Assembly (NCBI GenBank): GCA_006384855.1
Contig: VCJN01001821.1
Coordinates: 112,259 to 176,258, forward strand
Length of the DNA stretch: 64,000 nucleotides
Source of the DNA: Tetraselmis striata
Taxonomy: Eukaryota > Chlorophyta > Chlorodendrophyceae > Chlorodendrales > Chlorodendraceae
Reading direction: 5' to 3'
This document shows, piece after piece, positions 3,001 through 62,212 of this stretch. Numbering within the stretch: position 1 is the first letter of the stretch; every line of letters begins with the position of its first letter. Under the pieces are notes generated by a model, which was given only the letters and a program-made list of their open reading frames with translations, made no database searches and was not told where the DNA came from. The position numbers and the translations under genes were made by a program.

Positions 3001-5617
3001 TCATGCCACACCGGTGACCCCCCCCCCCCCCCTCCCCTTCCCCCCTCCACACCCCACACCCCACCCTCCTTGGAGACCCGGACCCCCACCCAGCCCTGCC
3101 GGGGGGCAAGTAGGGGTGCCAACGTGGTAGTGAGAGCAGTGCCAAACAGAATTCACTTAATGCCGTCAGAGGTCGAAGGTAGGCGAATTAATAGCAGACT
3201 ACAGGGATACTTGCAATCGCTTGCGTGCAGGCCTACTTTGAAGGTCATGCTAAGGGTAATTCCTTTAGGAGCATGGGCACCCGTAGTGTCAGGCAATGGG
3301 AGTCGGGGTCAGCCACTGGGGGCTACCATAGCCACGAGGCGGAATGCGAGGTTGTGAGCTCCGGTGGCGCCGCATCCCGTGTGACACCCCGGGCGGGGAT
3401 GCTTCTTCCTGCAGCCGCATGCGGGTGATCGCCAGCGACGAGTGGACGGGCGACGAGCCGCCCGGACCGGCCCGGGAGGCGAGGAAGCTGCTGGCAGTGG
3501 AGCGCGAGAACTACAAGGTGCTGGCTGCTGCCTCCGCCACAGCGCCCACCCGCCCCCACACGCGGCGAGCATCCAGGAGCAGTGCGTGGCGGGGCGCATC
3601 CCGCTGCCGAGCTGATGCGCGCATGCTGGCGGCCACTCGCGGGGCGTCATTTGCCCGTCTGCCCGTTGCGCCTGCAGATGCTGGGGAAGGCTGGTCTCGG
3701 GCGAGGGACCCTCATTCACGAGAGGCACTTCCCCGGCGGCAGCAGAGGCGTCGGCAACGGGTGAGTGGGCAGTAACGCCCTGCGCTGCCGCACCCGCCCC
3801 GTCTGCGGTGAGGGCCATGTATACGATATGATATGATGTATGTATGTATGTATGTATGTGTATCTGCCAGAAGTGGCAGATAGGAGCGAGGAAAGTCATC
3901 CAAAGGACCACTCGGAAGGAACACTCCAACGATACATTTCATTGTTGAGAAAGTAACCACGTAGCACGAGACTTAAGTAGCGACTGGAGGCCCCGTGGGG
4001 GTTGACTGTGCCGCGTGCTTGCCATCGCTGCTGTCTGGGCGTCGCAGGCGGGCGGGCGACTCCCTGCGCAGCCCCCTGCTGGCGCCGACAGCCTGGGCGG
4101 CGGCTGCGGAGACGGCGTCCCCCAGCGTGCTGGGCGCCCGCGCGCGGACCCCCGCCTCCTCCGCGGAGAGGCCGCCGCCGCAGGCCCGCCAGCCCGAGGA
4201 CAACCCTCCGCTGCTGCAGGCCAACATCCCGCCCGGGCTGCGCGCCAGCAGGTACACTCACCGCTACATGCGTCACTGCCTGTGTCGACTCCCTCGCGAA
4301 CAAGGAAAACCCCTCATAGCCTGGAAACGCATCAGAATACACTACGAAGACAGCAGAGAATGCCCAACTTTATGCAGCGCGAAACCGGTCCTTACTTTTG
4401 GGGACTCGGAAACCAAATCTCATGCCTCGGCACCCCGCCTCATCACTGATGGCCACCTCTTACGTGAATCCCTGCCAGCCCGGCTGTCAGGCCTGCAGGC
4501 AGCTGGGACCCGGAGGCCAACAATGGGCGGTCGGGTGCGTGCCCCCGCCCCCCCCCCCCCCCCCCCCTTACACACACACACACACACACACTCCTGCAAC
4601 CCTCCTGTGGGAGGCCACCCTGCGCGCCATCCGCAAGGCCGACTCGCGCAACGTGCTGCCAACCAGCCTCTCTTTGCCCCTTGTGGCCGGACAGAACCGG
4701 CGCAGGCACAGTCAAGGCCGCACACGAGCATCCCGCGCAGATGGAGTGGGGAACTGGCGCGTGCCCCCCCCCCCAAGTTGGACATTTCATCTGGCCTGAT
4801 GACACACTGCAAATGCGTGTCGTCGATTCGCTGACATGTATAAAAGGTGCCATAGTTTTGGTTGCCGTTCCCTATTGTACAACTAAAAGAAGCTCAAAAT
4901 GGAGTTCATTTAGACCATTGCGCCATCTGCTCAGTCTCCGTCTGCGTAACTATTATTTGCAAAAACAATAGCGATGGCACATCCATATCGCTTGCAGCAG
5001 GACAACTGACCGCATCTGTAGCTTTCTGCGCTCACTGTGTGCCAGTCCCCCCGCCCCCCTGGGCTGCCTACTCCCATACTTTGCCCCGCGCACTGACGCT
5101 GCGCCTCAACCCCCCAGCAGCGGCAGAGCCAAGCCGGCAGCAGCGCCGCGTCCCAGGGTGCGCTGTCCACCAGCCTCGGGGCGTCGCCCAGCATGAGCCT
5201 GTGGTTCCAGGAGGCGCCGTCCGGCGGGGGGGTGGGCGACTTGGCGGGGATGGGCGCCCAGCCGGGCAGGAGGCAGCCTCCTAGCCTAGCCAGGCCCGAG
5301 GCACCCAGCCCCGCCCCCGCCCCCATGAGCCCGGTGAGAGAACCCCCCGACCCCCCCCCCCCCCCCCCACCGACTCCTGGCGGACTCCAGGCCAGCCCCA
5401 CAGTCGCCTTCTTGGCTCCCCAAGTAGACCACCGCAGAGATCACCTACCGGCTGTAGGTCGGGTTTCGCTTCTACACCCCATCCACGAAAAATGGCAAAG
5501 CTTGTTTGGTGCCAAGGACATGTCGGAATGTTCGTGTTGTATTCGTGGTTTATTCTAAATTATGTCGACATTTTGACATCGTAACCTTTTCGCAGGAGAG
5601 AGAAGGGGAGGGGGTCC

Positions 5618-13760: not shown

Positions 13761-15193
13761 TCATTGGAATATATGGTCCGGGAGCGATGGGTGGCTGGGC
13801 GCAATAGTCGACACACACTTGAACGTGTGCATCGCAAACTTGTCACGGATGGAAGATGATGGCGCCTTCCGCAAAAGAACAAACTGGCGGTGCAGGGACC
13901 GAACACAGACCTGCAGCTCCTGCGCAGTGTACCCAAGGTGGTACAGCAGAGTGGGCGACATGGTTGGTTTGCCCAGGGTGAGCAGGGCGAGAAATACCGC
14001 TGAGGCAGCGACATGAGAGGGGAGGAAGTGGAGCATCCCGTAGTCTGTCAGAGAGATCTCGCCCAGGTACATGGCCAGAAACTCCGTCTTGGAATCAGCT
14101 TGAGCTGCGCGCAGGAAGCGTTTGGTAAAGGTCCGCACGGTGGGCACCGTCAGCTCGTAGTTGAGGACGCGGAGCATTTCCTTTTCGCACAGCAGCAGCT
14201 CCTCCTTCGAATAGGCGTGATCAGTGATGTAGCAAAACTCGTCGAGCTGCGGCGCGTAGATCTCCTCGTACTTGGAGGCAATTAGCGTCGCAGTGATCCC
14301 CACCAGCTGGAGCTTGCTCCGAAGCACGGGTGTCACCGATAGGTAACGATCAACATACGACACGGCAAGATGCAGGGTCTCGGGGACAAGCCGGTATTCC
14401 GACGCCACCTCTACCATCCAGTCGACCAGGATCGCTCGCATGGACGAAGATATGTCGCGCTGCACTGACTCCATGTAGCAGGTGGAGGGCCGCCGCCGGC
14501 GCTCGGACAACCGCAGGTTCTGATAAATACGCTCCACGCAGAAGGTGCAAGCCTGAGGGTCATCGTGTGAATCTGCATCGATGTCCATCACTGCCGGCGG
14601 CACGCTCCCGGGTCCGCCCCATAGTGTCTGCATGAGTGGGGGGGGGGGGGGGGGGGGGGGGGAGGAATTAACGAACCACGCCGAGGGGGGACTGTTCCGA
14701 GGGCCGTCGTCAGAAATAGACCCGCGGTCGCAGAGGGCGGGACCGCTCCGAAATAAACAAGGCATAATCACGCACCTTCTTGTCGGAATCCGACGGGGTG
14801 CCGTTGGTGATGTCGTGCAGAGCATTTCGCAGTTTCTTGCCTTCGCCCTGTTGCAGGCAGAGCGTCGCCACGGTCGGTGGTTATCGGCAACAGGGAACAC
14901 GTCAAGAGCGCTGAGGTACTGCATGTACTGGTGTCAAGTACTGAAAACGGCAATGTAGAGGCGATGAATGGCGATGGCAGGCGTGGAGGGTATATGATTT
15001 CAGCGAGTGCTAGGCCGACGTGGGTGCAACTCGAAGGAATATGCAGGGGCGGGCGGACCTTGGTGATGTCAAGGCCTTCCGGGTCGTTCGCCCCTCGCTT
15101 GTTGGTGCCCGGCGAGGCTGACGCAGCGCCCAGCAATACGCGCTTATTGCTCGGCTCGGGTGTGGGAACCGCCAACAGCCGGGCGTCGTGCAT
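13761..15193 (-). CDS. A-type cyclin, three exons
   Basis: Exons (descending): 15059-15193, 14776-14847 and 13761-14627. All junctions are GT-AG and phase 0, giving about 357 residues. The N-terminus has the cyclin A/B-like elements SNKRVLLGAA and ALHDITNGTP. The last exon holds both cyclin folds: the cyclin box MRAILVDWMVEVASEYRLV, then ETLHLAVSYVDRYLS and ASKYEEIYAPQLDEF, and a C-terminal fold ending PSHPSLPDHIFQ. MRAILVDW plus LVPETLHLAVSYVDRYLS is the A-type pattern, pointing to CDK activation in S/G2; the N-terminal half is short, and no clear RxxL destruction box could be confirmed. An upstream in-frame ATG at 15280 would add 29 residues. A C tract on the sense strand (14639-14662) lies just before the last exon's acceptor. 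B-type remains a weaker alternative. Confidence 0.88.
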
Positions 15194-32500: not shown

Positions 32501-35500
32501 CGTGAGGCAAACCGCGCCGCCCCACGGCACCACCTGCGCCGTGCCGACACGGGGGATTTATATGACAGCAGGACGTGTAAATGATACAAGCATGTTTGTT
32601 GCATCTGCGGAGTCAAATCATTGGATGCGTCAAGCCATGTCGGAAAATTAGTCGCTTTGATAAACAGCATTATACCATTGTAAGATTCGAAAGTAACCAA
32701 AATGCTGCGAGAGACCTTATTTGCACTTTCCAATGTTCCACGCCGAGGTGGATTAGCGACTGCGTCATGTTGGGTGCGGGAGCGCATGACTGGGAATTCG
32801 CGGGCATGCAGCCTCACAGTGGCGAGTCTCTGATGCGAACAGGGGGCCGAACCAGCATCAGGCGGATTGATATTACCTGTCGCCGGTTGCCGATTGTCAC
32901 GTTCTCGCCGGCACGCAGGTCGGGTCCAAATCCGCAGAAGCGAAACACCAGGTTTAGCTCATTGTTGACACGATGCGGCTCGTCGTCAGGGCAAAAGCAA
33001 GCGGGCGCCTGTGCCAGCCGGCGACCGCCGACGAATGGCGGCGGCGGCGGGGGGGGAGGGGGCGCAGCCGGCGAGGGCGGGGGCGGTGACGGGCAGTCGC
33101 AGAAGCCGTCAAACACCCACCACGGCGTGGTGCCGTAGGGGTCCGTCCCGTTGTAGTGGTCGACGGGGTAGTCCATCCGCGGCTGGGCATCGATGTTGAG
33201 GCTGAGGGTGAGGTTGAGCAGCTCTACGCGCGGGGCGCCCAGGTCCAGCACCACTTCTATGCGCCGCTTGCCACGCGGGCCAATATATTCCCGGTTGGGC
33301 AAGGTTGCCTGTAGCACACCATCCACGTACACCTGCGGGGGGTGGGGGGGGGGGGGGGGGGGGGCACAAGGTGAAGGCACATGCGAGTTGTAAGCTTGTG
33401 GCGCTTACTGCTCGCTCCATACCATGAAACAAACGCCAGTAGCCACAGAGCAAATACTGTATTATACCACGAGGGCATAAAATCTGAGTCTGCAGGAGAC
33501 CCGTGTCTCGGCAATCGAGCAAGAAGCCGCCCGATGATACAATAGCATAGTTGCTGCGGGCAGAGGGAGAGCCTGCGAAAATCTGGAGCTGCGAGGGGAG
33601 CGAGTGAATGGTGTGTGTGTTTTGTGAAGAGGGGGGGGGGGGGGGGGGGATCTGGCTCACCTCGTTGTCAAAGGCGGCTATTGGCAGGTTTCCAATGTTC
33701 TCCTCATCAAAGTGGAGGCGGATGCGGGTGTTGCTGGACGTGCTGTCAGGCTCCACGTCCTCCGAGCGGATGCAAAACTGCGCGTCCAGGCCGTCGCCAA
33801 ACCAAAAAGGGCGGCTTTCGTTGCCCATCGCGACAAACCGAGACGTGATGTCCGGCGGCCAGCAGTACTTGAATGTGATGGCGAAGGTGTTGTTCTCGTT
33901 GGCCTCCTCCGTGGCGTTGTAGAAGTCCGCGTACGCAGTCAGCGTGTGCAGCTCCAGGTCCGCCCCAAGCGACAGCGGATGCAGGTCCGTCTCGGGCCAG
34001 TCAGTCTCATACACCAGCGTCTCGCCCGGGCGGATGATCGTAGCATTGGTGATGAGGAAGTTCCACTCGTCAAGATAGGCGCGCATGCGCGGGTGGTATG
34101 GGGTTCCGTATCCCGCGCTCACACCAGTTGCCTCGGCATCGCCGCCAAGCATGTTGAGAGTCTCGCGGTGCACCAGCGTTATGGGCAGCGTCCAGGAATC
34201 GGACTCGTAGTCTGTCTGATTGATGTGGTTGGGGTAAACGCAGTGGTCTGCTGTCCCCCACGGGACGAAGACGCCGCCGATGACTGCGCCGTCGCCGGCG
34301 TCCAGGTCTGGCCGGCAGCTACAAGGCACGCCGATGTCTTGCCAGCCGCAGTAGCGAACAAATACCGAGCCTGCAATGACCGGCGGGTTGGAGCCAGCGT
34401 CCAGCAGCAGCGTGATTTGCTGCACAGTATCCTCGAAGTGCTCCCCGGCAACGAGCCGCAGGTGCTCTTCCGTCGCAAGGTTCGCCGTGACCGTGGAGCG
34501 GACAAAGCCGGCAGGCAGCGGATCATACAGCAACTCTTCGGTGGCTAGAATCTGCGGGGGGGGCAATGCCAGCAGCAGCAGGAGGAGGACTTCAGGGAAA
34601 GCACTCTGCATGACCGTAGAAGAGTATTCATCAGCCGAGACAAGCACACCATGTATGGCCATGATGCTACTCTAGCTGCCCACCAACTAATAATCGAAAC
34701 GACAGGTCAAATATCATTGTGGCTGCCCTGAGCACCGTGAATGCATGGGTGAAAAGAGCAACTATAGGCATATAATGGTCTGTGGTGCCACTGTCGAGTG
34801 TCCGTTCTGCGCGCCGTGACGCTGCAGTCCATATTATCTGGGAGTTGGCGCACCTTTGCTCCATCCAGCTCAATCCAGTTGCGCCGCGCGGGCACGGTGC
34901 TGATTCCGTCGTTCCGCTCGGCATAGGCAAAGGTGTACGCCAGGTAGTCCACCCCGCCAGACTCGCGGTTGCCTTCCACCACGTAGGCGTCCGCGCGTGT
35001 GAGGCACACATTTGAGCCCCACGGCACCTGCGGGTGGCGGCCGAGAGAGAGCGTTCAGCGGGGGGTGTCCATGAAACACAAGCCTTTTAGGTGTGCCATG
35101 CAGCACAGACACCCCACTGGCAGTCCGATGTAACAGGAAAGCAGCATACTATATACATCACTGCAAGGCAGGCACAAGGTGGGGGGGGGGGGGGGGGGGG
35201 GCAGTTGCCGGCAAAGGGGGGGGAGGTGTACCGTGTAGCCAGCGATTGTTACGGTGGCACCCGCGTTGTGGCCAAGGCGGTTGAGCACCAGGTCGTTACT
35301 GCCAGCGGAGACTTTCAGCGAGAGGTCGCTGGCAGCGCCTGCGCGGATGCGCACACGCAGCGTGGGGCTCACGCTGACATCGCCCACTGTGGCGTTGGCC
35401 AGCACGTTGAAGGTGTAGACCGAGTAGCCGAGGCTGTTGTCCACAGACAGGGTACCGGGCTCCAGCACTCCATTGATAACCTCAATAAAAGACTCGTCAA

Positions 35501-37073
35501 AGCCAGTGACAACCTCGCTGAAGGTGGCGGCCACTGTGACGCCGATGGGCAGGTAGTCTGTCACCACGCTGAGCGTCACACTGGGTGCAGCGTCAGTGTA
35601 GCTCAACGACAGCACGTTGGAGGCCGCTGAGGGCACAGTAGGATAGGACGCGTGCGCCGCGGCGCCAGCCGGCAGGCTCACATTGACTGTGCCAGACAAG
35701 ATGGCAGGGTCAACCACAAAGGTGTACGGCCCCGCGCCCGATCCAGAGGGGCCGCTCAGAAGTGTGCCACCTTCAATGGCAATGTCGTCCGCGGCAAAGC
35801 CAGTCACGGGGACAGCAAAGGTGGCGGTGATTGGAATGGGCTGGTTGACGTAGGAAGTGACGAGTGGATCGGCAGGAGCGAGAGTCACGGTCACATCATC
35901 CACCGGCAGCGTGTTGGCTGACACTGTCGTCACATAGCTCTGCTGGAAGCCATCCGTGGACAACACAAAGAAATGGACATCCACTGACCGGCCGGGCGGG
36001 AGGCCCGTCATGCGCACCGAGGACGCCGTGAGCGCTGCAACGGCTGCCGAGCCGTACGAGACGCCAGCCGGGAAGGTCCGGGCTAGCACCTGAGCCACCG
36101 ATGGCACAGTGGAGGCTGTGTTGCCGCCTGCTGGCGTTTCTGATGCCGCCCAGAAGAGCGTCCCCGCCTGGTTGGAAGTCACCCGCAGCGTGTACTCGTC
36201 CTCGATGATGTCCGTGGTGAGTAAGCTGCTGGTGAGGGGGCCAACGGCCCCAGGGAGGAGCCCGCTGATGCCCGCCATGCGGAAGTCCAAGCGCACCGGG
36301 GCACCCGCAGGGTTGGCGCCATCAAAGGGCACCGCGTACAGGTCGTAATTGGTGTAGGGCAGAACAGATGGGCAGACACTGCAAGCGAGGCCGCCGCCCA
36401 CATCCAGATAGCTACGAAGGACCTGAGGGGACGCCAGTTGCAGATGGGACCTGAGTCAGCCCACCAGTGAAGGGCTGGCATTCCCATGCCCTGAGATGAA
36501 TCAGAATGGTGTGGGAAGCAGACAACATCTAGCCCATCCCAGGACTAGCACCCCAGTCGGCCACATCCCAGCGCTTACCTGGCCATAGAAGAGGCCCTCC
36601 GCTGCCTCGCCACCAGCGCCATAGAATGTGTCGGGCTCGGCAATGCCGGGGATGGTGGGGCCACGGTAGCGCTCCTCGCGCCGTGTGCCGCAAGAGTCGT
36701 AATCAGTGTTCGCAATGTCAATGGAACCGAGGTACGGCGACGACAGCAGCGCCACGGAGCCGCACGCCAAACTGAGGCCGCCGCCGGCGCTAGCGCCGGC
36801 TAGCACCTGCGCTGCGCTAGGGGCTGGGTCGCCCCCAGGCACCACCACCCAGTACACGTGCCCCGCAGAGTCCAGCTGCACCGTGACGCTCACCGTGCTG
36901 CTGGTCACCTGCCCGACGACTGGGTACCCCTGCTGCAGCACCCTGCCCTGGATGAACCGCGGCCCCTCGCCAGCGGCAGCCCCCACAGCGCATGCCAGGA
37001 GCAGTGTGCATAGCGCTGGTGCCACGCCTCTGCCGTGGGCGCAACTAACGCGCCGGTGGCGCTTGGCCACCAT
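29581..37073 (-). CDS. Large type I cell-surface protein: Ig-like domains, repeated Cys/Trp modules, Pro-rich spacer, TM helix
   Basis: Nine exons (descending): 36579-37073, 35232-36422, 34854-35027, 33661-34551, 32877-33332, 32072-32533, 31467-31920, 30258-31297 and 29581-30134, roughly 1900 residues. The start at 37073 gives a basic N-terminus and signal peptide (ALCTLLLACAVGAAAG). Exon 2 has at least two Ig-like strands of the bacterial type (VTGFAADDIAIEGGTLLSG, then VTGFDESFIEVINGVLEPG). Exons 3-8 hold about five copies of a module of roughly 150 residues with (V)PWGxxVCLTRxD and RFCGFGPDLRAGENVTIG-like cores. Exon 8 then has a Pro/Ser-Pro spacer of about 170 residues, and the last exon a helix SLVVIIAICAGGGVALVLAA followed by CLWRRR and a short cytoplasmic tail ending APSHL. 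All junctions are GT-AG with matching phase except the last (30134/30258), which is off by one. It is an adhesin- or wall-linked receptor-like protein by architecture; ligand unknown. Confidence 0.75.
30440..30905 (-). repeat. Pro-rich (PPSPPP-type) coding repeat
   Basis: Within exon 8 of the surface-protein gene, the minus strand encodes runs of PPPPSPP, PPSPPP and PPNPP. Such motifs are hydroxylated and arabinosylated in green algal and plant wall glycoproteins and form a stiff rod. Here it lies between the extracellular modules and the last membrane-proximal domain. Confidence 0.9.
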
Positions 37074-48496: not shown

Positions 48497-48815
48497 GCCT
48501 GCTGCCGCGCGCGCGCGCGCGCAGGGGGGGGGGTTGAGAGTTGGGGTGGATGTAGCCCACCACCGGCAGGGAGCACAGATGCGAGTGCGCGGCTGTCCGC
48601 GCTTGGTTCAGCGGTGAGCTGCGGTGACCGCCAGGCTACCCCGTACTTCATGCGCGTGCATGGATGTGCAGCGTTGTATGTGCAGGGATGTGCAGCGGAT
48701 GTGCAGGGATGTGCAGCGAGTACGTGCAGTCGCATGTACTTAGCCCGGGTGCTCCGCGTCGGCGCGCGACACGCGAGCCCGCGTGCGCATATCAATTTGA
48801 TAAAAAAAAGGAAAC
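48497..48815. other. Left flank of the large element
   Basis: Contains a (GC)n run at 48510-48523 and several GGATGTGCAG(C/G) units at 48660-48720. It ends in an A-rich stretch and AAAC (48812-48815), which is repeated directly after the right terminal repeat. Confidence 0.5.
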
Positions 48816-48845
48816 AACAGTAATTTAACCTATTTTGCGCCGTGG
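48816..48845 (+). repeat. Left terminal inverted repeat
   Basis: 30 bp matched at 27 positions by the reverse complement of 61262-61291. The first nine bases (AACAGTAAT) and the TAACCTATTTTGC core are identical. Confidence 0.75.
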
Positions 48846-49104
48846 AATTCATTTTGCACCGTAGGGTTTGTTTATACCCTAGTTCCCGGGTTTACTATCA
48901 GTACTTAAGACTCACTGGTGATGTAGCTTGGGTTTGTAGACCTTGGGTGCAGTGCAGCATTCAACAGCATGAAGGCCAGCCGCGACGCATATCCAATGTT
49001 GGTTTTGGAGCATTTTGTCCAAAATGGGACAAGATGAGGCAATGAAATCAATATTTATTATGATTATTACATCCAGCGGCTAGCCACAAGACGTTGCTGA
49101 TAGT

Positions 49105-52100
49105 TTATTCGTTGAGCATCCCCAACTCGAGCAAGTCCTTCTTCGTGGCTGCGTTAAACTTGACGACTCCGCCGGGTTTGCGTTGCGCTGGGGTGGTTGA
49201 CATGACGTGGACGCAGTTGTTTCGTGGCTGGCTGATTTGCCACCCAGTTTGCGCATATGTCTTCACGACTTGCACGCTTTTCCCGTACCACTTCTTTCTG
49301 ACCATGGTGCCGTCCTCGTTGAACACCTCTCGACTTCCCGACGCGTCGTGGATGGCCTTCGCGTACGATAGGGGGACGGCTTCAGCAAGCTTCCAAGGAA
49401 GCGTCAGGCACTTCTCCCACCTTGTGTCAACTGGCTTCTTCCCTCCTTTTGTGTGCGCGTACAACCATAGGGGCATGAGGGGTTTGCCCTTTGCATCGGC
49501 ATGGAAGGGCTCGTATACGGCCACGGTCAACGTGTCTTCGGTAGTCTCGCGCGACTTCACAAGCCCGATGACGAATCTCGACTCCCAATCACCAAGAGTT
49601 TCAGGACACTTGTCTTCCTCATGCACCTAACGATGACCAAGACCGCGAGCTATGTTAGTCCCGAGCGAGACGCCGCGCCATTTTTGTCCCAGCTGGGACA
49701 AAATAACAAGCAAGGTAGAAGAACCAAATTGTTTTGTCCCGTAAAGGACAAAAATGACAAACAATGGGACTCACATCGGAGACGTCGATGACAACGAGGT
49801 TCGAGCCCTTTGCATCGCTGGGCGATGTGTTGTCATGAAGCCTCTCCTTGGCGCCGGCGTGAACTCCCCGGAAGGCGCTGTCATCTTGAAGCACTTGAGC
49901 ACGAACCTCGGCTTCCACGCGAGCGGCTTCGGCATTGTTGAGGTCTGCGTTGGTAGCCATCGTGTGACGTGCCTCAGCAGGCACGGTCTGCCCGTGCTCG
50001 CGCAAGAAGTCGTCAACTTCCTCTTTCCGTTGCGGCCAGAACCCGGAGAAAGCTGCCGAAGGAGCAGTTTGCATCTCATCCAAGTCGTCGAGCAGATTCT
50101 TCCAGCTCTCGCGCTCGACTGGGGAGAAGTGCCACTGGACCGCCAGGTCCGTGATGTACGACCTGGACCTTCTTGAAATCATCCAAGTACCTCTGGACCT
50201 TCACCGCGTCGGGCTTCTTTTTGTCGCAGAGAGCGTACAAAAGGGGCCGGCCCGCACGAATCTCGGGCGTCCCAGTTGGCGCGCTCTTCAAGATATGCAC
50301 GGGCTCAGAAAGCGGTGTGTTGGACCACAAGGCGGTGCGCAACGAGCCGCCAGACGCGGCGGCGTCGTCACGGGTGAACTCGAATTTGTGCGGCTTACTG
50401 ATGTCCTGAATGTGGTCTTGGAAATGGGGCCTTAACCACTCAGAGAAGTCGAGGGAGAATGAGAGCTCAGCAATCTCCGGAGTGGGCGAGAATGCCTTCG
50501 CCACCAAGTCAAGAAAGGCCTCGATTGTGTAGGCGGAGCTGCGAGATAGCGCAAGACTGATGCGGCTGAAGATCTGGTCAACCCGTTCGTGAGTGTGCCC
50601 GACAGGCAAGAAGACCAAATGAATGACGTCGCAGATGCCGATAGACACAAGCCAATTGCAGAGGGCCGCCACGTTCCTATTCTTGTTCTCCCTGACGGTG
50701 TTGTCCATCTGGATTCTGATGTACGGAATCTTTCTACCACGGTGTTGAATTTCCTGCATCGCAGACCAGATTTCATCAGTCCAGGGCTACCGGACAACCA
50801 CGGCGAACCTATCGGGAGGCTAACGAGCTCACCTTCATGATCGTGATCCATATCAGAGTGCACGTCGTGGACGAATCGTGGGGGATGGTGTTGGTGTAGT
50901 AGTAGATGTCGTCCGGGCGGTATCCGTCGTACTTCACACAGGTGAGGTGGTACTTGAGGAGCATGTCGGGCTTCACAGTCTTGGGGATGCGAACCCAGTG
51001 AGGCAGCAGGGTCTTCGCGGAGTCCATGCTATCAATTTCGAAGAAGAAGAAGTTTCCATGGCCAAGGCGCGACTGGAAGACGGCGTTGTTCAGATCCCTT
51101 CGTTCCTGGCGCACTCTCTCGAGGTGTACCTTCTGCTCAGCTCTGACCTGACGCCTCACCAGCTGCTGATGTTGACGGTGCACTTGACGTTCCTCTGGCG
51201 TCATGTCCTTTGTGCAAATCTCGCGAGCTTGGTCTCTGAGTGCTTTGCCCGCCGCGCATATGGGACAGTGGCTGAATCGCTTCACCTTCGGCGTGGTGAC
51301 ATCCGGGAAGTCTTCCTTCCAAGTCCGGCGGAAAGTGTCGAAGGATGCGAGCTTCACTTCGCTCTCGGTAGCCAAATCTACAAAGGGGCAGGGGCATGAT
51401 AGGTCGGTATACAAATAAGGTCTCATACTGCGAGACAGAAAAGTTCGGTCTAAAGTGGGTCGAAATAATTATATCGGTAGTGGGTGAATAATGCTGTAAT
51501 CAGCATGGCGAAACAATCTGTCATCAGTGTGACGAAACGGTATGTCAGTAGTGGGACAAAACCGTCTCTCAGCAGTGGGACAAGACGTTCTCTCTGCAGG
51601 GGGACGATATCGGCTAATTATGTGGGAGAAATACTTTTGTGGTCGGTGGGACGAAACGGTATGCCATGAGCGGTGCGAAACGTTCTGTCATCAGTGGGAC
51701 GAAATCGGTCCGGCGTCGGTGGGACTAAACGTTCTGGCGATAGCGGGACGAAACGGTTTGTCATCAGCGGGACGAAACGGTATGTCATCAGCGGGACGAA
51801 ACGGTTTGTCATCAGTGGGACGAAACGGTCTGTCATCAGTGGGACAAAACGGTCTGCCATCAGCGGGACAAAACGATTTGTCATCAGCGGGACAAAACGG
51901 TTTGTCATCAGCGGGACGAAACGGTTTGTCATCAGCGGGACGAAACGGTTTGTCATCAGTGGGACGAAACGGTTTGTCATCAGTGGGACGAAACGGTTTG
52001 TCATCAGTGGGACAAAAACGGTGTGTAATTAGCGGGACGAAACGGTCTGTCATCAGTGGGACAAAACGGTCTGTCATCAGCGGGACAAAACGGTTTGTCA

Positions 52101-52998
52101 TCAGCGGGACGAAACGGTTTGTCATCAGCGGGACGAAACGGTATGTCATCAGTGGGACAAAATGGGCCTCACCACGAAGAATGGCGTTGTCGTCCTCGGC
52201 CCACGACTTGTAGTAGTAGTAGACGCAAATCTTGGTCATCCAGGGAGGTAGGTGCTTCTTGAAGGTCTCGCTGTTTCCGTCATGAAAAGGCATGATCTCG
52301 ACGTGACCGAGGTCATCCGAGAAGAAGTGCTCGAGAAACATGCGCACATGCTCCCTCGGTCCGGTCTGTCTGCTCTCGTATTGCTTGCGCTGCCTGATGT
52401 ACGTGGGTTCGTTATCCACCACCGACCGCTGGATCACGAGACGTCTGTGTTTCGAGACCTGATGCAAGGCCTCCCACGCACGCCCACACGTGTAGATGGG
52501 GCCGCGATGATCGAAAGATCGCAAGTAGCCACCGTGATCGAACATGTAATCGAACTTGTCGGATGCCGACTCGTAGCCACCCCTGAGAACCTGAGCGAGC
52601 CGGTCAAAGGAGCGGTTCTGATTGCCCGAGTATACGGTCAACGCACGGTCCAACACGGCATCAACGAGGGCCTCTCCGCACTGTGTGTATAGCTTGTGCA
52701 CGCACTTGCGCGAACAGCATGGCGACTGCTCGCTAGCCTCCTTGGCGAGCATGAGGCGGATACAATCGCGAGAGGTGCGCTTGCTGATCAGAGACGAGAC
52801 CTTGCCATTATCGCTTTCGGCGACCTCATCGGAGCCCTTGCCCCACGTGTACTTCCTTTTCTCAGGCTCCTTACGATCACTCGCACGCGCGTCGCAATCA
52901 CACGAGTACCCGCTGCGGCACGAACACGTCGGTAATGTAAGTGTAGTGTCCGACTCGCCGGATCCTGGAGAAGAGGCCATGCTTTCGACCGCCGCCAT
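49105..52998 (-). CDS. DUF7869-type RNase H-like protein, candidate transposase
   Basis: Four exons (descending): 52173-52998, 50833-51377, 49775-50786 and 49105-49626. Splice phases agree if one extra base near 50150-50185 is ignored, giving about 967 residues. The start at 52998 (MAAVESMASS) is preferred; an in-frame ATG at 53106 would add 36 Pro-rich residues. Exon 1 has a Cys-rich patch (CSCRSGYSCDC), the helix-like YTCGRAWEALHQVSKHRRL and VEIMPFHDGNSETFKKHL. Exon 2 has a CPIC pair (RFSHCPICAAG). Exon 3 has the signature IQMDNTVRENKNRN then FLPVGHTHERVDQIFSRIS, which I recognise as the DUF7869 pattern seen in repetitive eukaryotic proteins and thought to be RNase H-like. The acidic residues of D-N-T and H-E-R-V-D could be catalytic; this is inference. 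Intron 1 holds a 24-bp repeat array, and the last intron a palindrome. A TGTAA poly(A)-type signal lies about 35 bp after the stop. Confidence 0.72.
49682..49703. repeat. Perfect 22-bp palindrome in an intron
   Basis: TTTTGTCCCAG / CTGGGACAAAA, perfectly self-complementary, inside the last intron of the minus-strand gene. A second, imperfect TTTTGTCC...GGACAAAA pair is at 49732-49753 and another near 49015-49033. Confidence 0.9.
51484..52166 (+). repeat. 24-bp repeat array A (intron 1 of the minus-strand gene)
   Basis: About 20 regular and 8 degenerate copies of a 24-bp unit with the core GTCATCAGTGGGACGAAACG on the plus strand. It lies wholly between the donor (52172) and acceptor (51378) of intron 1. 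Main variants are CAGTGGG/CAGCGGG and GACGAAAC/GACAAAAC. The left part (51484-51680) is strongly diverged and probably older. Confidence 0.9.
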
Positions 52999-53537
52999 GC
53001 AGCGCGGGGCGAGAAGGGGGGGGCGGGGGGTGAAGGACTGTGATCTGTGGTGAGGAAGAGTGACGGCCGATGACCGTTCTCGGACGGGCCGTTGACCGGG
53101 GGGCATAATATCCAGCTACGGGTCAAAATAATTGATGACTCAAATACCGTGTTATTTCGTGCTTCTTTCGTATGTCGGAAATAGTTCTATACTAGTAAGT
53201 ACACCCGAATCCAATCCAAGGAATATATCATCCCATGAAGGAATATTATTGCCACGCCACTGTACTCTCGTACCGTTATGACTCTCGAGTAGGGAATATT
53301 TTATCTTCCAGTAATAGTAATATATAGTCGCAGTAGTTAGCCCTGTATATTCGTCGCGGTGCAAAATACATGAACATGATGACGACGACGAGGTACACTA
53401 TAGTGTGCGCACGCGCGCCGTTTGTCCAGCAGGGGTCAGAGCGGCGGCAGACAGAAACCACGTCATTTCCACCTCTCCCTCACCGCTTCCCACCAAGAAA
53501 CCCGCTCATCTACCGCGTCAACCTACCTACCGCCAGA
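52999..53537. promoter_or_regulatory. Shared upstream region of the two element genes
   Basis: About 540 bp between divergent start codons (52998 on minus, 53538 on plus). It contains an AT-rich segment around 53150-53340. No TATA box or repeat is convincing. A bidirectional promoter is inferred from the head-to-head layout only. Confidence 0.4.
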
Positions 53538-56500
53538 ATGGCGCCGAAGAAGAACGAGCCTGCCAAGGACAAGGAAGACAAGGACGACGCCACCCCAGGT
53601 GAGTTGCGCGCGCGTGCAGTAGCTGCCTGCCTGCTCGACGCGTGATACGGCCAGATCTAGCGAGTTCGGTTAGGGTTCACTGTAGAAGCGGTGTAATCTA
53701 GGACCACTCGAGGTGTAGGCAGACGAGTGGCAGCGTACAGTAGCCGCCTGCCTGCTCGACGCGTGATGCGGCCAGATCTAGCGAGTTCGGTTAGGGTTCC
53801 CTGTAGAAGCGGTGTAATCTAGGACCGCTCGAGGTGTAGGCAGACGAGTGGGAATAGAAACCCAAACGAGACGAGCGGCGTCAGGGTCCTGCAGGGTAGT
53901 ATTACGTCCCGTCGAGGCAGCTGCGGCAAGCAGTAAGGATGCTAATTGGTGGTGGGAGCGGGTGGGGTTGAAGAGCGGCCAGGGGGAACCTCTGCCTGTA
54001 CTCCGCCGTAAGGAGTGGTTTAATATTAGTGTGAAGCGCAGTCTTTCAAGACATAACATTATTAAACCGCAGTACATAATGTATTGAAAATAGTTTTGTC
54101 ATCAGTGGGACGAAACGGTTTGTCATCAGTGGGACGAAACGGTTTGTCATCAGTGGGACGAAACGGTTTGTCATCAGCGGGACGAAACGTTATGTCATCA
54201 GTGGGACGAAACGGTTTGTCATCAGTGGGACGAAACGGTTTGTCATCAGCGGGACGAAACGGTCTGTCATCAGCGGGACGAAACGGTTTGTCATCAGTGG
54301 GACGAAACGGTTTGTCATCAGTGGGACGAAACGGTTTGTCATCAGTGGGACAAAACGGTTTGTCATCAGCGGGACGAAACGCTTTGTCATCAGTGGGACG
54401 AAAGGGTTTGTCATCAGTGGGACGAAACGGTTTGTCATCAGCGGGACGAAACGGTTCTGTCATCAGCGGGACGAAACGGTTTGTCATCAGTGGGACGAAA
54501 GGGTTTGTCAACAGTGTAACGAAACGTTATGTCATCAGTGGGACGAAACGGTCTGTCATCAGTGGGACGAAACGGTTTGTCATCAGTGGGACGAAACGTT
54601 CTGTCATCAGTGGGACGAAAGGGTTTGTCATCAGTGGGACGAAACGGTTTGTCATCAGTGGGACGAAACGGTTTGTCATCAGTGGGACGAAACGGTTCTG
54701 TCATCAGCGGGACGAAACGATCTGACAGGGTATGATATTTGTAGGCCGAAGGTCCAAGCGGACATCGAAACCTACCGAGAAAGCAAAAGAATTCGATGCG
54801 CTCGGAGCGCTAGTAGGGAGAAAACACAAGGCGTCATCTTCTGTGCCAGAGCAGCCGGCGGCGAAGAAGAAAAGTGCAGCCTCAGCTTCTGCAGCTAGAG
54901 CCGGCGCTGAGGCATCAGGTAACCCCTGGAAACCGAGCCTTTTAGGAGGTAGGGTGACGGCTTACGGCACGCACTCGCAAGGAGAAAGATTGGCCGCCTT
55001 GCTTTTGAGGGACCGAATCAAGAGCGGTCAGGTCCTCTCAGATGCTCAAATGCAGACAGCGCGAAGGCTAATGGATTACGAAAAGCTCATGCAAGCTTAC
55101 TATCAATCAGGTCCTTGCCTCTCCAATCACATGATTTTTGTGTGTGCACTGTGTCATATTGACATTGTTTGAAATCATGTGTGTTGACAGGTTCGAAAGG
55201 ACGCGCACAAGAGCCAGTAGCGACTAAAGCTTCAAAGGAATCCAAGGGGAAAGAAAAGGTTTCAGAGACAATTGTGACTCCAGGTAATTGTGACTGAAAG
55301 TATCAATCCCTGCCTTTGTGAGTGCACTGTGTCACATTGACATTGTTTAAAATCATGTGTGTTGACAGGTTCGAAAGGACGTGCACATGAGCCAGTAGCG
55401 ACTCAAGCTTCAAAGGAATCCAAGGGAAAATAAAAGGTTTCAGAGACGATTGTGACTCCAGGTAATTGTGACTGAAAGTATCAATCCCTGCCTTCTCACT
55501 CCCTTCGATTACTTTCTCGTCAATGAGTTATCTGACGTTCCAACAGGTCGTAAATTGGCGTAGGCAACAGCGTCGGAAGCAGCTGGTAAATCGGGATCCC
55601 CAGGTAAGAAAAATTACGCTTGGCTTTGATGGTGTATAGCGATACCGTTCAGTAGTTAATCGTGACGCCCACCGCAGGTGTGTTGAGTACTCTCTACTCA
55701 TTCTTTACAGGTTCCCCGAATCAAGGCTCTTCTTTGTCTAAAGGCCCGCCTCAAGTACCGGAAACAGAGCCTGAGCCTGAAATAGAGCACACTGAGCCGG
55801 AGCCGGAGCCCGAGCCGGAGCCTGAAACAGAGCCCAATGAGCCCGAGCCAGAGCCTCGGCATGAGCCTGAAACTGAGCCCGCTCAGATGGAGCCCGAGCC
55901 GGAGCCCGAGCCGGAGCCCGAGCCCACCCGGCTTGACCCGGAGCCAGAGGCCGAGCTCGAGACTCCAGCGCCGACTACCGGGCAAGCGTCTGGTTCTGGA
56001 GCCTCTGGTTCTCGAGCCCCTGTTGCCGAGGCTCCGAGAAGGGTTCCTGAATTCCTCAGTATGTGCACGGATGAAGAGGTCTTCGGCACAGAGGAAGAAC
56101 AGAGGCAACGGGCGGCGGAGAAGCGTAAGCAAGCTCTCGACATCACCGGCACTCCCGGACCCGAGAGGAAGACAAAGCTGATGACGGTCGCCTCTTACGA
56201 CGACTTCTTTGACGAGAGGGACGGGTCCCAAGAAGATGACTCCTACAGCGACTTTACCTCAAGGAGCTGGACTATCCACTGGTTGAAGAACGCAAGTGCT
56301 GAGGTCGAGATCTATTTGTACATCGAATTGCACAAGGCGAGCCTGCTGACTGGCAAGGACTTTTTCGATGATCCGAAGGGGCCACTTCTCGCGTGTATCG
56401 GAAAGATCAAGGACGTCGAGCTGGACTCGGCCGGAAACTACGAGGTGAGTAAAGCTTATATGATGTCTGAATTCGTGTCAATGTCGTGTTTCAATAAGTA

Positions 56501-59500
56501 TTAATATTCTTGTGCTTGTTACCGCAGATATCTCTTGAACCTTATCGCTTGACAGTGCACAAGGAGTTCAGGATCGATGTCAGCTTTGAGAGGTTGCTAC
56601 TCCACGCGATCCAACCGCCACTCTCCTTCCAACCGCGGTTCCAGTCTTACTACGCATGGACTTTGGTCGAGCGCAATGTGCTGGCGCAGGCGCTGACAGG
56701 TTTCGCGTCGGGTCAGATTGACATCGATGACTTGGCCAACATTGACAAGGATTTTAAGAACGCGCTTCCATACGTCAACACGTTGGCCGTCCCGCCGGCC
56801 TTGAATGGCTTCAACAACACCGGTGCCGTCGACTGGATCTCTTACGGCCACCTCAGAGTCGAGATTGCTGATCCAGAGGTGAAGACATCTCACGGTGGCG
56901 ACATCAACATGTTATACGCCGACAGAGTCAACCTCGTGGTCAACAAGGATACGGGGCTGCCTTACATTTTCAGCTTCATATCCGATAAGTTCGTCGCTCC
57001 GCCGCCGGAATTTGAATTCCGTTCCCCAAAGCTGCAAGACTGCAATATGGTGGCGCAAAGCTACAAGGTAAAAGCCTATCGCGACCTGTTGTACCTATCC
57101 GGATCAGATATGTGTAGTTACATATAAATCAATACACAATGCAACTTACTGACATCCATTTCTTGCATTTGTTATTCAGAGAAATCCTTCCCTGTCCGCC
57201 GAGAATTTCTCGGTGTCCTTTCCAGTAGTCCCTAAACAAGATTTTTTCTCCGATGAGTACGAGCCCCTCGCTCAGACCATGGCCAACTTCAAGGAGCTAG
57301 TCGCAGCACACGAAGGCGGGGAGAACCCGAGGTTGGCGGATTCAAATTCCTACAAGCCAGAGATCGACGTCATCGTCGAGTTTCTTCGCGCCCACGGCGC
57401 GCGTCAAGCCAACATCGACGGCAGCCACAGACGGGAGGCGAAGCGCATGGTGAAAGAAAACTACCCGGAAATCTACAACGCCAACAAAGGCATCCACCTC
57501 ACGTCGACTAAGATGTACATCGGCCTCTCGCCGGAAGTCTGCCGCTACATGTCTATGAAGCTCAACGAGGCGGGTCAAACCGTCGTGGGAGACACGTCGA
57601 TGCACAAACTCCTGGTGAGTGACCCATTCTCCCAAATTACTATTTAGCTAACCGTGGCAGCAAATAGGCGTAAAGTGTGACAAAAGTCGTTCTGTCGTTA
57701 GCGGGTTAAAAATATGTGACAGTGGGACGAAACGTTCTGTCATCAGCGGGACGAAACGGTCTGTCATCAGTGGGACGAAACGGTCTGTCATGAGTGGGAC
57801 GAAACGGTTTGTCATCAGCGGGACGAAAGGGTTGGTCATCAGCGGGACGAAACGTTCTGTCATCAGTGGGACGAAACGGTTTGTCATCAGTGGGACGAAA
57901 CGGTTTGTCATCAGTGGGACGAAACGGTGTGTCATCAGCGGGACGAAACGGTTTGTCATCAGCGGGACGAAACGGTCTGTCATCAGCGGGACGAAACGGT
58001 TTGTCATCAGTGGGACGAAACGGTCTGTCATCAGTGGGACGAAATGTTCTGTCATCAGCGGGACGAAATGTTCTGTCATCAGCGGGACGAAACGGTTTGT
58101 CATCGAGGTACAAGCGTTCGGAATTTTGAAATCGGTGCAATTGTTTCTGCATAACCTTCGCAGATGTTTCGAGAGCTGGTATGCAGAACAGGATGCAAAT
58201 CGCCCCGGCTTTAGGGCACTTCCGCAAATCATGGTAGTGAAGGAGTTCAAGAAGTCTGAAGGTCTTCAAGTTGAACTTGAGAAGATCGGCATCAAAGATG
58301 AGAAGAGCAGCGAGTTCTCAAATTTGATTGACCTCTGCTCGCGCCCACAACGGTGAGCTGCGTACATGATGAAAATTTATCGTGTTGTTAATGCTGCTAG
58401 ATTCTGACAAATGATTTGCGCAGTGTTTTTGAGCCCCTTGAGCAGATTTCTGAAGCCTACCGGCATGTGGACCTCGGGGTTCGAGGATGGGACGAAGCCA
58501 GAACCAAACTCGGAGACCTGTTTGTGTACTACCAGCAAGAACTCGATAGAGTCAAGCGTCTCAATTGCGGCAGGCAACTCACCCAGAAGGAAGTGAGCAA
58601 GGTTTACGAAGCAATTCGGAAGCCTATCAATACAATCCTCGATAACAAGAAGTACGGCTTCGGGAAAGACAGAGCTCACTTCCGAGTCGCCCTCATGGAG
58701 GTAAGTTGTGACCGACCCCAGTGTCTTAATCACATGGAATACTATCATTCATTCCTTTCTCCGTACTGAAGTTTGTTTTTCGACCCAGAATGTCGGCTTT
58801 GGACCCCATGCGCCCTGGCTAGACGACCCGTCTCTTGCCAAGCAGAGCGACAGCGCGGATCTCCCTGTGGGCCAGATGTACCTGGTGGTTGGACTGCTCA
58901 TCCAAGGCGAGCACAGTGTGACCCCTTGCCTCTACGAGCTGGTGGATGACATAAAGCATGCCGGCGACAATGGCCCCATGGCTATTACGCACACCAACGC
59001 GGAGTGGCTCGCGATGATTGAGACCTGGAGGTTTCGCGATCTCTTGCGTCGAGCAAGCATCAAGCTCATGAATGCTATTGGCACGGCAAAGGGACACGGA
59101 CATGAACTCCAACTGTTGACGCCGGACGAACCGGCCAGGAACTGGGGGAAATATCTCTCGGACCACATCATCGAAATGGATGCGGATGACAAAGTGTCGG
59201 ATGAGCAAGCGGCCGCTCGCCTTGACGCCATCACCAAGTTCCGAGCCAAGGTTGATGACCTCGGCCCAACAGGCTTCCCTAGAAAGTTCCAGGATTTGTT
59301 CAAAGGTGCTCATCGCTCCGGTCCGTTGATGGTCTTGCTGACCCCTCCTGCCAGATGGGGGGACATGAAATCCGCCGATTGTCTCACACCACTACCGGTT
59401 CGAGAGCATATCGCGGCCACCAACACCACCATCAGGAGTGAGGCGTATCGCATCAAGAATCAGATGCCGGACTTGGTCATCTCCTTCTTCACAGAGTTTG

Positions 59501-60945
59501 CTCTTCTGGCATGTGCGCCGGAGCTTATCGCGGTTTCCGCTCCGAATGTTTCTAATGAGCTGTGGATATCGATGAAGGTAACTAAGATCTTGTGCAACCA
59601 CAAATGCTCTTCTGAATTTTCGTTGTGAGCTATTAACCCGAATCTGTTTTCTAATACACACATGCCGGGGCACTTCCGGTGATGCCCAAGGGCGAAAATG
59701 TCGACAAGGATGAGGAGATTTGGTTAGACACGGAACTTTGCAAGACTTGCATTGTGGAGGGGAACTTCAAGGCTCCCGCGACAAAACAATTCGTCGCGGA
59801 CGCCATGTCGGCAGTTCGTGCCAAAAAGGCAACAGTCTTCATTGCCGACGCGCTTTTCGGAGCTGGTTCGCACACATGGGACTCGAAGGATGCTGCGTGG
59901 GGTACGGACGACTTCAACGACGTGTTTGCTTTCGCCAGGCAAGACAACCCCCACAACCCCGGTGCGTACTAGATGACTGTGCTTTCATTTATCTCATTCC
60001 CGATTTACCCCCGCGCAGGCAGTTGAATATCCTGACTGGATCTTCTGACGTCCACACTGCTCTCGATGGGTGCCATTTCTTCATTCACCTCTCGGACCAG
60101 CAACTTGGATCCGCAATCACAGCCGTTCAAAAACAAGCTGAGGACCTCATCTATCACGTCCTGACTTGGGCCAAGGATTGCGGGATGAAGATGGGCAGCT
60201 CTCTGCGTCACGACGCTGAGTACTATCTCTACGTCAGGAAGCCCCCGCCAAGCATCATAGCTGACAACATCCGTTTCAATGATCCCCGAAGGTGAGATTT
60301 GATCCGTGGAAAATAGCCGGCTTGTATATTCTACTCGCTAAGCCGGTTGTGCCTTTCCAGGTTCTCTACATCCATCATGTTGGGTCACTTCAAAGACAGT
60401 TCGAAATTGAAGGACGAGAACAGACAGACGGTGAACAAGTACCAAAAGCCTATCGCTCTCTTCGCCAAGCACCTTAAGATGGCGGCAACAGACGGGACAA
60501 CAATCGTCGACGTCACAGCCGGAACCGGGACAACCGCGGTGCGTGAGGGGTGCAACCCGGGTGAGTGTCTTAATGGGGTCAGCATAAAAAAATTAACGCC
60601 TTGTGCGGTTTGCCACGCCTTTTCCAGGTCGCTGCGGCCTTTTCCGTGTGGTGGGACCATATGGATCATAGCTACTCGTTCACACACAGGAACTTGAAGA
60701 TGATCCTCATTGACAACCAGAAGACGCAAATCGCTGGGATGAAGTCCAGGATGACCTCATGGTTCAAAGAGAAGCCATGGGACGAGACTCAACAACTGCG
60801 TCCAAGTGACTTCGAGAAGTGGCCGGGTCTACCCCGTCCAATGACCGAGTTAGAGGAGCTGGAAGAGCGTGCAGCGGCGGAGAAGAGGAGGCAACAGGCA
60901 GCGGAGCGCCGAGGGGATTATGTGATCGAAGATGAGGATATGTAG
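53538..60945 (+). CDS. Large acidic protein with C-terminal beta-class DNA methyltransferase domain
   Basis: Likely exons: 53538-53598, 54745-55110, 55191-55283, 55711-56444, 56528-57067, 57180-57614, ~58174-58352, 58424-58700, 58789-59577, ~59664-59938, 60019-60291, 60361-60538 and 60628-60945. The Lys-rich start ([17 protein letters not shown]) and an (E-P)n acidic stretch (about 55760-55970) precede an unassigned middle ([40 protein letters not shown]). The C-terminus reads in the order of beta-class N4/N6 methyltransferases: [17 protein letters not shown] where DPPY is expected, then [16 protein letters not shown], then the SAM motif [16 protein letters not shown] and a helix plus ILIDNQ. 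It ends in a Glu/Arg coiled-coil-like tail ([19 protein letters not shown]). Motif IV is DALF, so catalysis is doubtful. Two extra stop-containing exons (55369-55461, 55547-55603), a GC donor (59939) and a lost acceptor before 59664 suggest decay. Confidence 0.65.
53612..53860. repeat. Two-copy direct repeat of about 122 bp in intron 1
   Basis: The block starting GCCTGCCTGCTCGACGCGTG and running through CGAGTTCGGTTAGGGTT is present twice in tandem, with few mismatches. Confidence 0.85.
54092..54728 (+). repeat. 24-bp repeat array B (intron 1 of the plus-strand gene)
   Basis: About 26 copies of the same unit as array A, in the same absolute orientation. It is more homogeneous than arrays A and C. 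It ends some 15 bp before the acceptor of exon 54745. Confidence 0.92.
55191..55461 (+). repeat. Duplicated exon with flanking intron, second copy stop-containing
   Basis: Exon 55191-55283 (93 nt, phase 1-1) and its copy 55369-55461 share splice sites and nearly all bases. The copy has TAA at 55431-55433 in frame where the first copy reads GAA-AAG. A further 57-nt exon-like segment (55547-55603, phase 1-1) has TAG at 55561-55563. All three can be skipped without changing frame. Confidence 0.75.
57718..58104 (+). repeat. 24-bp repeat array C (internal intron of the plus-strand gene)
   Basis: About 16 copies of the arrays A/B unit, same orientation, between the donor at 57615 and the acceptor near 58163-58173. 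Confidence 0.92.
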
Positions 60946-60961
60946 TACAGTTCCGCAAAAT

Positions 60962-61200
60962 TAGCCGCTCATATGTTTTGTCCCGGCTTTGACAGAGTTT
61001 CAGCCCCGGACGGCACAAACTACTTGGTAGCCATCACGGCCCCGCACTTCTTTTTGTCCCAATTTGGACAGAGTTTCAGCCCCCGATGGCGCAAACTTCT
61101 TGTAACCATCCCGTTTCCTTCACTCTTTTGATTTGTCCATGCTTGGACGGAATTGGTTTCCCCGACTTGGCACAAAATGAACCAACCGGCATTCATATTA
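60962..61200. repeat. Right subterminal duplicated block with TTGTCCC motifs
   Basis: A segment of about 75 bp (TTTTGTCCCGGCTTTGACAG ... AGCCATC) is repeated in tandem from about 61051 (TTTTTGTCCCAATTTGGACA ... AACCATC), with a third partial copy near 61133. TTGTCCC is the reverse complement of the GGGACAA core of the intronic arrays. Confidence 0.75.
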
Positions 61201-61261
61201 GCTTTCAATCCCACAGCTGCCCCCAAACCCTAATTTAGACCTAACCACAATGCACCGCGTG

Positions 61262-61291
61262 CCTCGGGGCAAAATAGGTTACATTACTGTT
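61262..61291 (-). repeat. Right terminal inverted repeat
   Basis: Reverse complement matches 48816-48845 at 27 of 30 positions. It is followed at once by AAAC (61292-61295), the same four bases that precede the left repeat. Confidence 0.75.
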
Positions 61292-62212
61292 AAACGAGAA
61301 ATTCAGATAGTACTTTACAGGTTGAGCGAGATAGTCGCCGCTACTCGGTATGAAATCCACGTCCCTCGTCCGTCCCGTATCGTCCCCGTATGTCGTCGTT
61401 CGTCACCAGTAGGGCACATTTAGGTCACGTCCGAATCTCACAGTGGTACAAACGAGGTGAAATACAGCGAGACGTCGCCCTCATCGGACACTTGGCAACC
61501 ATGATGGAGGGTGCTAGGGGACGAGCAGCTACGGTACCGTCTAGCGAGTGTGCGTCAGGTAGGCGCAGCCGCTTTCTAAAATAAACAAGTCCGGCGCCGC
61601 GCCTGGACGACTCACGCTCCGCGCGAGTCGCCTTAATATCTTACATATTATATCATTATGTTTCTTAGGCCATTCCGACAAAATGACCTGGTTTAGGTCA
61701 CACCCCCCTCCATTTTGAGCCCCCCCCTCCGGTTTGTTTGTAAGGATTTTCTAGTACTTTATGTACTGCAGCACACTATGTAATCCATTTTGACATGTGA
61801 CATGCACTTCCAACAACAACGCGATGCACCATGCCTCTCTCCCACCCCAACGGCCTATGGTAAGCCACTAACATGCGACGGGGGGTGGGAAATATTTGAG
61901 AGAACAAGCGTTGAGTAGTGCCCCGACATCCCAGCAGAGGGCACCTGGCGGTGCAACGGGCTTGGTGCGGCTGTTGCAATGCTTGCTGGTTTTGGATACA
62001 AGCTCTTTAGTTGAGAGTCGTCCCTGCAACTAACGCATGAGCGGTCGTGCGGTGCGCTGCGGTGGCAGTTCCATCACTCCATGTACGGAATTCTTGGTTT
62101 CGCAGCAAATTCAGCGTGCAACACGCATCGCCGCTTGTTGCCGCCGAGATGTTGCCCCGCCAGCCCTTTGCACATGCCGACAGCATAACCACTGGCTGAT
62201 GTCCCGGCGACG
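61292..62212. other. Right flank: repeat R3 copy and unassigned sequence
   Basis: R3 copy 2 is at 61440-61640 (partner 23750-23960). From 61650 to 62212 there is a C-rich patch (61702-61730) and no supported gene. Confidence 0.55.

Follow-up and report, generated by a model that had tools for sequence, protein, structure and literature searches.

A DNA transposon of Tetraselmis striata that carries a candidate transposase gene of the DUF7869 family and a methyltransferase-like gene

The element, its genes and its copies

The window analyzed here is a stretch of 64,000 nucleotides from the genome of Tetraselmis striata (contig VCJN01001821.1), and it contains a 12,476-base-pair (bp) element at positions 48816-61291. 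The outermost 30 bp of the element form inverted repeats with three mismatches, the left one at 48816-48845 (plus strand), which begins the element with AACAGTAATTTAACCTATTTTGCGCCGTGG, and the right one at 61262-61291 (minus strand). The tetranucleotide AAAC abuts the element on both outer sides (48812-48815 and 61292-61295), and the interval is filled by two divergent multi-exon genes, gene 1 on the minus strand and gene 2 on the plus strand. These ends, flanks and genes had been described in an earlier note made from this sequence alone, and the description holds in each respect, with four exons for gene 1 and 12 for gene 2.

The gene 1 product, 956 amino acids (aa) as read from another copy of the element (C2669), agrees from its second methionine onward with P0012 (950 aa), an independent model among the JGI gene models of T. 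striata (Tetstr1), which match up to 100%. Exon 1, found in our model and in P0012, lies at 52173-52998, exon 2 at 50833-51377, exon 3 at 49775-50753 and exon 4, with the stop codon, at 49105-49626. The protein matches DUF7869 (PF25273) with an E of 1.1e-43 and 149.5 bits, relative to a curated cut-off of 26, and exceeds the cut-off of no other Pfam family. The domain spans parts of exons 2 and 3 and the intron between them, with approximate limits of 50361-50976. A frameshift in exon 3 occurs only in the window copy and in none of the 10 other aligned copies. Because of this frameshift the window copy alone is probably not autonomous, and intact copies exist.

Gene 2 encodes 1,496 aa in the window copy. 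Its modeled exons comprise exon 1 with the start codon (53538-53598), exon 2, whose 3' boundary is less certain (54745-55110), exon 3, which encodes an acidic Glu-Pro linker (55711-56444), and exons 4 to 7 (56528-57067, 57180-57614, 58108-58352 and 58424-58700). Exon 8 (58789-59577) holds the sequence TPPARW, which is not conserved, and exons 9 to 12, spanning 59691-60945 (59691-59965, 60019-60291, 60361-60538 and 60628-60945), encode a methyltransferase-like part. A motif for S-adenosylmethionine (AdoMet) binding is encoded at 60509-60538.

The earlier note had suggested looking for other copies of the ends and for sites that lack the element, and both were found. A 23-bp core of the ends occurs twice in the window when up to three mismatches are allowed, and not at all in 100 shuffles. 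The 224-Mb T. striata genome contains 578 matches to this core with at most two mismatches, 298 in forward and 280 in reverse orientation, compared to none for the reversed pattern. A chance inverted repeat is ruled out by these two controls. The 578 ends correspond to about 289 element equivalents, or roughly 3.6 Mb of the 224 Mb, an estimate that assumes full size throughout, and shorter copies do exist. The left 185 bp of the element are found with 99-100% identity at 40 places, the best 40 of 391 candidates, and the right 192 bp with 98-100% identity at 40 places (the window place is counted in both cases), in addition to one older place at 80%. In C2683 this older relative, with a right end that is ∼80% identical (L017, about 250-480), and a young copy are arranged tail to tail, and exactly 4 bp separate the two. 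The family has therefore had earlier waves.

Ten further copies, picked for having both ends 12-13 kb apart, were fetched whole, and all 10 keep recognizable parts of both genes. Together with the window copy these make up 11 aligned copies. Gene 1 is open in four of them (C2669, C809, C154 and C2683) and gene 2 in five (the window copy, C2669, C154, C54 and C2683), with C2669, C154 and C2683 open in both. The remaining copies are damaged; in C753, for example, part of gene 2 is missing, and C488 is strongly diverged near exon 1 of gene 1.

Target sites were read for 18 copies (the window copy, the 10 copies fetched whole and seven read by their flanks), selected because their two ends lie 7-14 kb apart on the same contig. 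An exact 4-bp duplication is present in 13 of these, comprising 12 different sequences (AAAC, GAAC, TAAC, ATGT, ATTT twice, AACG, TGGC, TCAC, TAGG, ACAC, GCAG and TACT), and three of four bases are duplicated in two others (C455 and C488). The window copy itself sits in a dispersed repeat. All three related repeats that were read, from among 54 other places listed, contain GGAAACGAGAAATTC without interruption; AAAC is present once in each, and the element is absent. Since there are hundreds of copies, 4-bp duplications and related target copies that are empty, the interval 48816-61291 is almost certainly a DNA transposon, and recent amplification of an element of the cut-and-paste type is the best explanation of these data.

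The DUF7869 protein as a candidate transposase

In an alignment of nine diverse DUF7869 proteins, three aspartates (D385, D468 and D510 in the numbering of P0012, with spacings of 82 and 41) are invariant in eight of eight, nine of nine and eight of eight of the proteins that cover each place. In the window they are encoded at 51031-51033 in exon 2, and at 50703-50705 and 50577-50579 in exon 3. This pattern suits an RNase H-type enzyme with a DDD active site, but is not proof of one. Gene 1 is under strong purifying selection: the ratio of nonsynonymous to synonymous polymorphism (pN/pS) among intact copies is 0.17 (bootstrap 0.08-0.36), and that of the exons encoding DUF7869 is 0.11 (0.02-0.33).

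The domain is not restricted to this element. DUF7869 is found at no fewer than 150 places in the genome (the best 150 of 548 candidates scored) and at none in 14 control genomes. In T. striata these places belong to at least three repeat families, namely the window element and at least two others. Family 2 is a decayed family resembling P0051. Family 3 is a recent one, with copies that are 93-99% alike and share ∼31% identity with gene 1 along most of their length. Beyond Tetraselmis, DUF7869 proteins occur in the dinoflagellate Symbiodinium (P0108) and in ENA, JGI, NCBI and other records.

Family 3 (L066, L067, L069 and L063-L065) is longer than about 11 kb and carries frames of multi-exon appearance on its other strand, six of which gave no match to Pfam; several of its copies lie near contig ends. 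In L069, positions 1-5248 are a whole or partial copy of the window element inserted in the family 3 copy, and a left end of family 3 considered at about 5,248 was rejected as it is actually the end of this insertion.

We consider it likely that the DUF7869 protein serves as the transposase of the element, judging from the aspartate pattern, the purifying selection and the distribution of the domain. As a DDD-type (RNase H-like) transposase, it would bind the ends of the element, cut the element out and join it to target cuts that are staggered by 4 bp. The combined proposition, that the interval is a transposon and that DUF7869 is its transposase, appears likely as well.

Several observations weigh against this combined proposition. 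Three of the 18 copies (C2669, C809 and C200) show no target duplication, and C2669 belongs to the trio in which both genes are open. The sites without the element are related repeat copies rather than the same locus. An RNase H fold of DUF7869 is a prediction from a pattern in the sequence, and the domain has no sequence match to a solved transposase or to a Pfam transposase family. For family 3, only the right end is known, and the family is not established as an inverted-repeat transposon.

Possible roles of the methyltransferase-like protein

The last ∼300 residues of the gene 2 protein resemble DNA methylases of the family PF01555, with an E of 2.4e-6 for the whole protein (28.1 bits, cut-off 26.7) and 1.6e-7 for the fragment. 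The methyltransferase part also matches PHROG DNA methyltransferases (E 2.9e-9), and the protein scores far below the cut-off of the NCBIfam CcrM model (E 0.00026). The AdoMet core, motif I, is kept in all 11 aligned copies. In its PF01555 match and motif I, the gene 2 protein resembles the beta-class amino-methyltransferases. Residues roughly 330-1100 have no Pfam match. A single protein search, in which the best 7,998 candidates by shared words were scored and which distant relatives may escape, found no relative of gene 2 outside T. striata, and the methyltransferase part has no match among phage records at E 1. Among solved structures only single weak matches came up: for the methyltransferase part a putative rRNA methylase at E 1.5, and others at E 0.69 and 0.05. 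Among the JGI models, P0021 joins DUF7869 to the methyltransferase end and P0049 joins it to phage-integrase-like SAM domains; each is a rearranged copy or an annotation error.

The catalytic motif IV of beta-class amino-methyltransferases has the form (D/S/N)PP(Y/W/F). No canonical DPPY or SPPY was found in gene 2. Instead, DALFG (59847-59861) occupies the likely position of motif IV, assigned by spacing and not by structural alignment, in all 18 JGI proteins and in 10 of the 11 copies, the other having lost this stretch. Exon 8 is included in seven JGI proteins; its PP motif is T/D/A-PP-ARW in five of these and broken in the other two, and three of the 11 copies yielded no TPPA. Gene 2 resembles CcrM-like enzymes of PF01555 in the motif I region and in the overall domain match, and differs from them in lacking a canonical motif IV and in that its domain is the C-terminal part of a 1,496-aa protein. 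Whole gene 2 is under some constraint, with a pN/pS of 0.48 in intact copies (bootstrap 0.36-0.68). For the methyltransferase part the ratio is 0.66 (0.35-1.21) among intact copies, which is not distinguishable from neutrality, and 0.75 (0.51-1.16) when all 11 are counted; no clear purifying selection is seen on this part.

Gene 2 was not found in family 3 by tblastn or profile in the roughly 11 kb of this longer repeat that were read, where the nested copy of the window element served as a positive control. A single chance-level tblastn row for gene 2 (21 residues, E 0.002) lies outside the family 3 repeat. Gene 2 was likewise not found around family 2, for which 12 matches were read with 1.5 kb of flank to either side. 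Since the stretches read of these two DUF7869 families contain no gene 2, it appears to be an accessory. We give close to an even chance to the idea that its product is an accessory derived from an inactive enzyme, and with low confidence we favor a DNA-binding accessory over an enzyme. Built on a methyltransferase domain with a lost catalytic motif IV, such a protein might help expression or the recognition of ends or target, rather than methylate DNA, a step that we propose more tentatively than those assigned to the DUF7869 protein.

The earlier note had gone further and joined both proteins into one transposition system, in which the gene 2 protein recognizes or protects DNA. The half of this proposal that concerns DUF7869 has fared well, as this protein is the best candidate for the transposase, but a role for gene 2 in the machinery is not established. 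An obligatory two-protein machine would fit the presence of recognizable parts of both genes in 10 of 10 fetched full-size copies, the purifying selection on gene 2 as a whole (its upper bound being 0.68) and the fact that seven of 18 listed gene 2 proteins have JGI gene numbers adjoining that of a listed DUF7869 protein. Families 2 and 3, however, are without gene 2 in the parts read, and the values for the methyltransferase part are compatible with neutral evolution. Because gene 2 could lie beyond those parts, this model is possible and unproven, and we rate it as rather unlikely.

Alternatively, gene 2 might encode an active DNA methyltransferase that alters the epigenetic state of the element, by self-marking or by escape from silencing. 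Excerpts of two articles offer precedents, with an epigenetic role proposed for the TET/JBP proteins of fungal transposons (PMC12730594) and discussed for the methyltransferases of retrotransposons (PMC5890265). The PF01555 score above cut-off, the PHROG match and the universally kept AdoMet core would all be expected of an active enzyme. Nonetheless, the presence of DALFG by position in place of DPPY or SPPY in every JGI protein, the variable PP motif of exon 8 and the lack of clear selection on the methyltransferase part make this alternative unlikely.

The stretch of residues roughly 330-1100 leaves room in gene 2 for a nuclease, with DUF7869 as the accessory. We regard this arrangement as improbable, given that DUF7869 is common to three families of repeats and is the better conserved of the two proteins, and that gene 2 was found in only one family. 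An endogenous virus or Polinton-like element is hardly credible and was rejected, even though a Polinton-like virus of T. striata, TsV-N1, is known (PMC10120064, in part): Pfam scans of the two proteins and of exon pieces gave no match to a capsid, polymerase, ATPase or integrase, the duplication is 4 bp instead of the 6 bp given for Polintons in an excerpt of PMC10045372, and no relative was confirmed in viral contigs, where the DUF7869 alignment had hit 27 pattern stretches and the gene 2 protein one.

Returning to gene 2 as an accessory to a DUF7869 transposase, the introns of the element contain arrays of a 24-bp minisatellite that might be relevant to its function. About 27 units lie in intron 1 of gene 1 (51517-52162), 26 units in intron 1 of gene 2 (54095-54719) and 16 units in intron 5 of gene 2 (57720-58104). 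A whole-genome count, not restricted to copies of the element, gives 2,604 exact matches to the unit and zero to the reversed unit. Family 3 has arrays of its own, with different units of 25 and 28 bp, and inspection by eye reveals GGAC or GTCC in the array units of both families. To consider the arrays candidate binding sites is speculation. In an elaborate form of this idea, DUF7869 would mark out a new superfamily of DDD transposases in eukaryotes and would work, in this lineage, with a catalytically dead methyltransferase, which as a DNA-recognition factor would read the 24-bp intronic arrays or the ends, and so link expression, marking and mobility. This scheme is doubtful as a whole.

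Relation to known mobile elements

The transposases of Ginger and IS481EU elements are of the integrase type, with an rve core. Both groups are similar to the window element in their inverted ends, 4-bp duplication and conserved acidic residues; according to part of PMC10045372, target duplications of 4 bp are known for Ginger1, Ginger2 and some lineages of IS481EU. In contrast, none of the transposase and integrase families of Pfam matches the DUF7869 protein at E 1 or better. Elements of the piggyBac and Kolobok groups target TTAA, which is not among the 13 exact duplications. The hAT, P and KDZ elements create 8-bp duplications and have transposase domains of their own, and the window element differs from them by its 4-bp duplication and by the lack of a Pfam match to their transposases. 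CACTA/EnSpm elements have CACTA-like ends and duplications of 2-3 bp, in contrast to the ends AACAGTAA and the 4-bp duplication observed here. Sola and Academ elements, which are recognized by similarity of their transposase sequences, produce duplications of 3-4 bp.

Other mobile elements also carry genes of the DNA-modification type. Excerpts of PMC12730594 describe TET/JBP genes in fungal DNA transposons, including KDZ, Plavaka, IS3EU and others. These resemble the T. striata element in pairing a transposase with such a gene, and differ in that the gene encodes a dioxygenase rather than a methyltransferase, the transposases belong to known superfamilies and the hosts are fungi. Methyltransferase genes are carried by DIRS and other retroelements according to part of PMC5890265, which also refers to the presence, in marine viruses, of DNA transposons that carry a DNA methyltransferase. 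DIRS and related retroelements are thus similar as mobile elements with a methyltransferase gene, but the two proteins described here have no Pfam match to a reverse transcriptase or recombinase.

A literature search that did not extend to Repbase Reports and most subscription journals found no publication naming DUF7869 or PF25273 or dealing with this element, and an entry in Repbase is possible. The part of PMC12695648 that was read contains no mention of Tetraselmis. The element has therefore probably not been described so far; the proposal of an undescribed DNA transposon in the earlier note is supported by this result and by the evidence from copies, duplications and empty related sites.

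Elsewhere in the window, we noted a cyclin gene at 13764-14933 on the minus strand (Cyclin_N, E 1.4e-45; Cyclin_C, E 3.5e-30) and, at 35058-36455 on the same strand, a reading frame whose product contains an Ig-like domain of bacterial type (Big_12, E 1.2e-9).

The element is a recent one, and both of its genes are open in three of the 11 aligned copies, so that its activity is accessible to experiment. The findings suggest a likely function, that of a transposase, for DUF7869, a domain of unknown function, and perhaps point to a new superfamily of transposons. They also add a transposon lineage with a captured gene of the methyltransferase type; such captures recur, and their explanation is unsettled.

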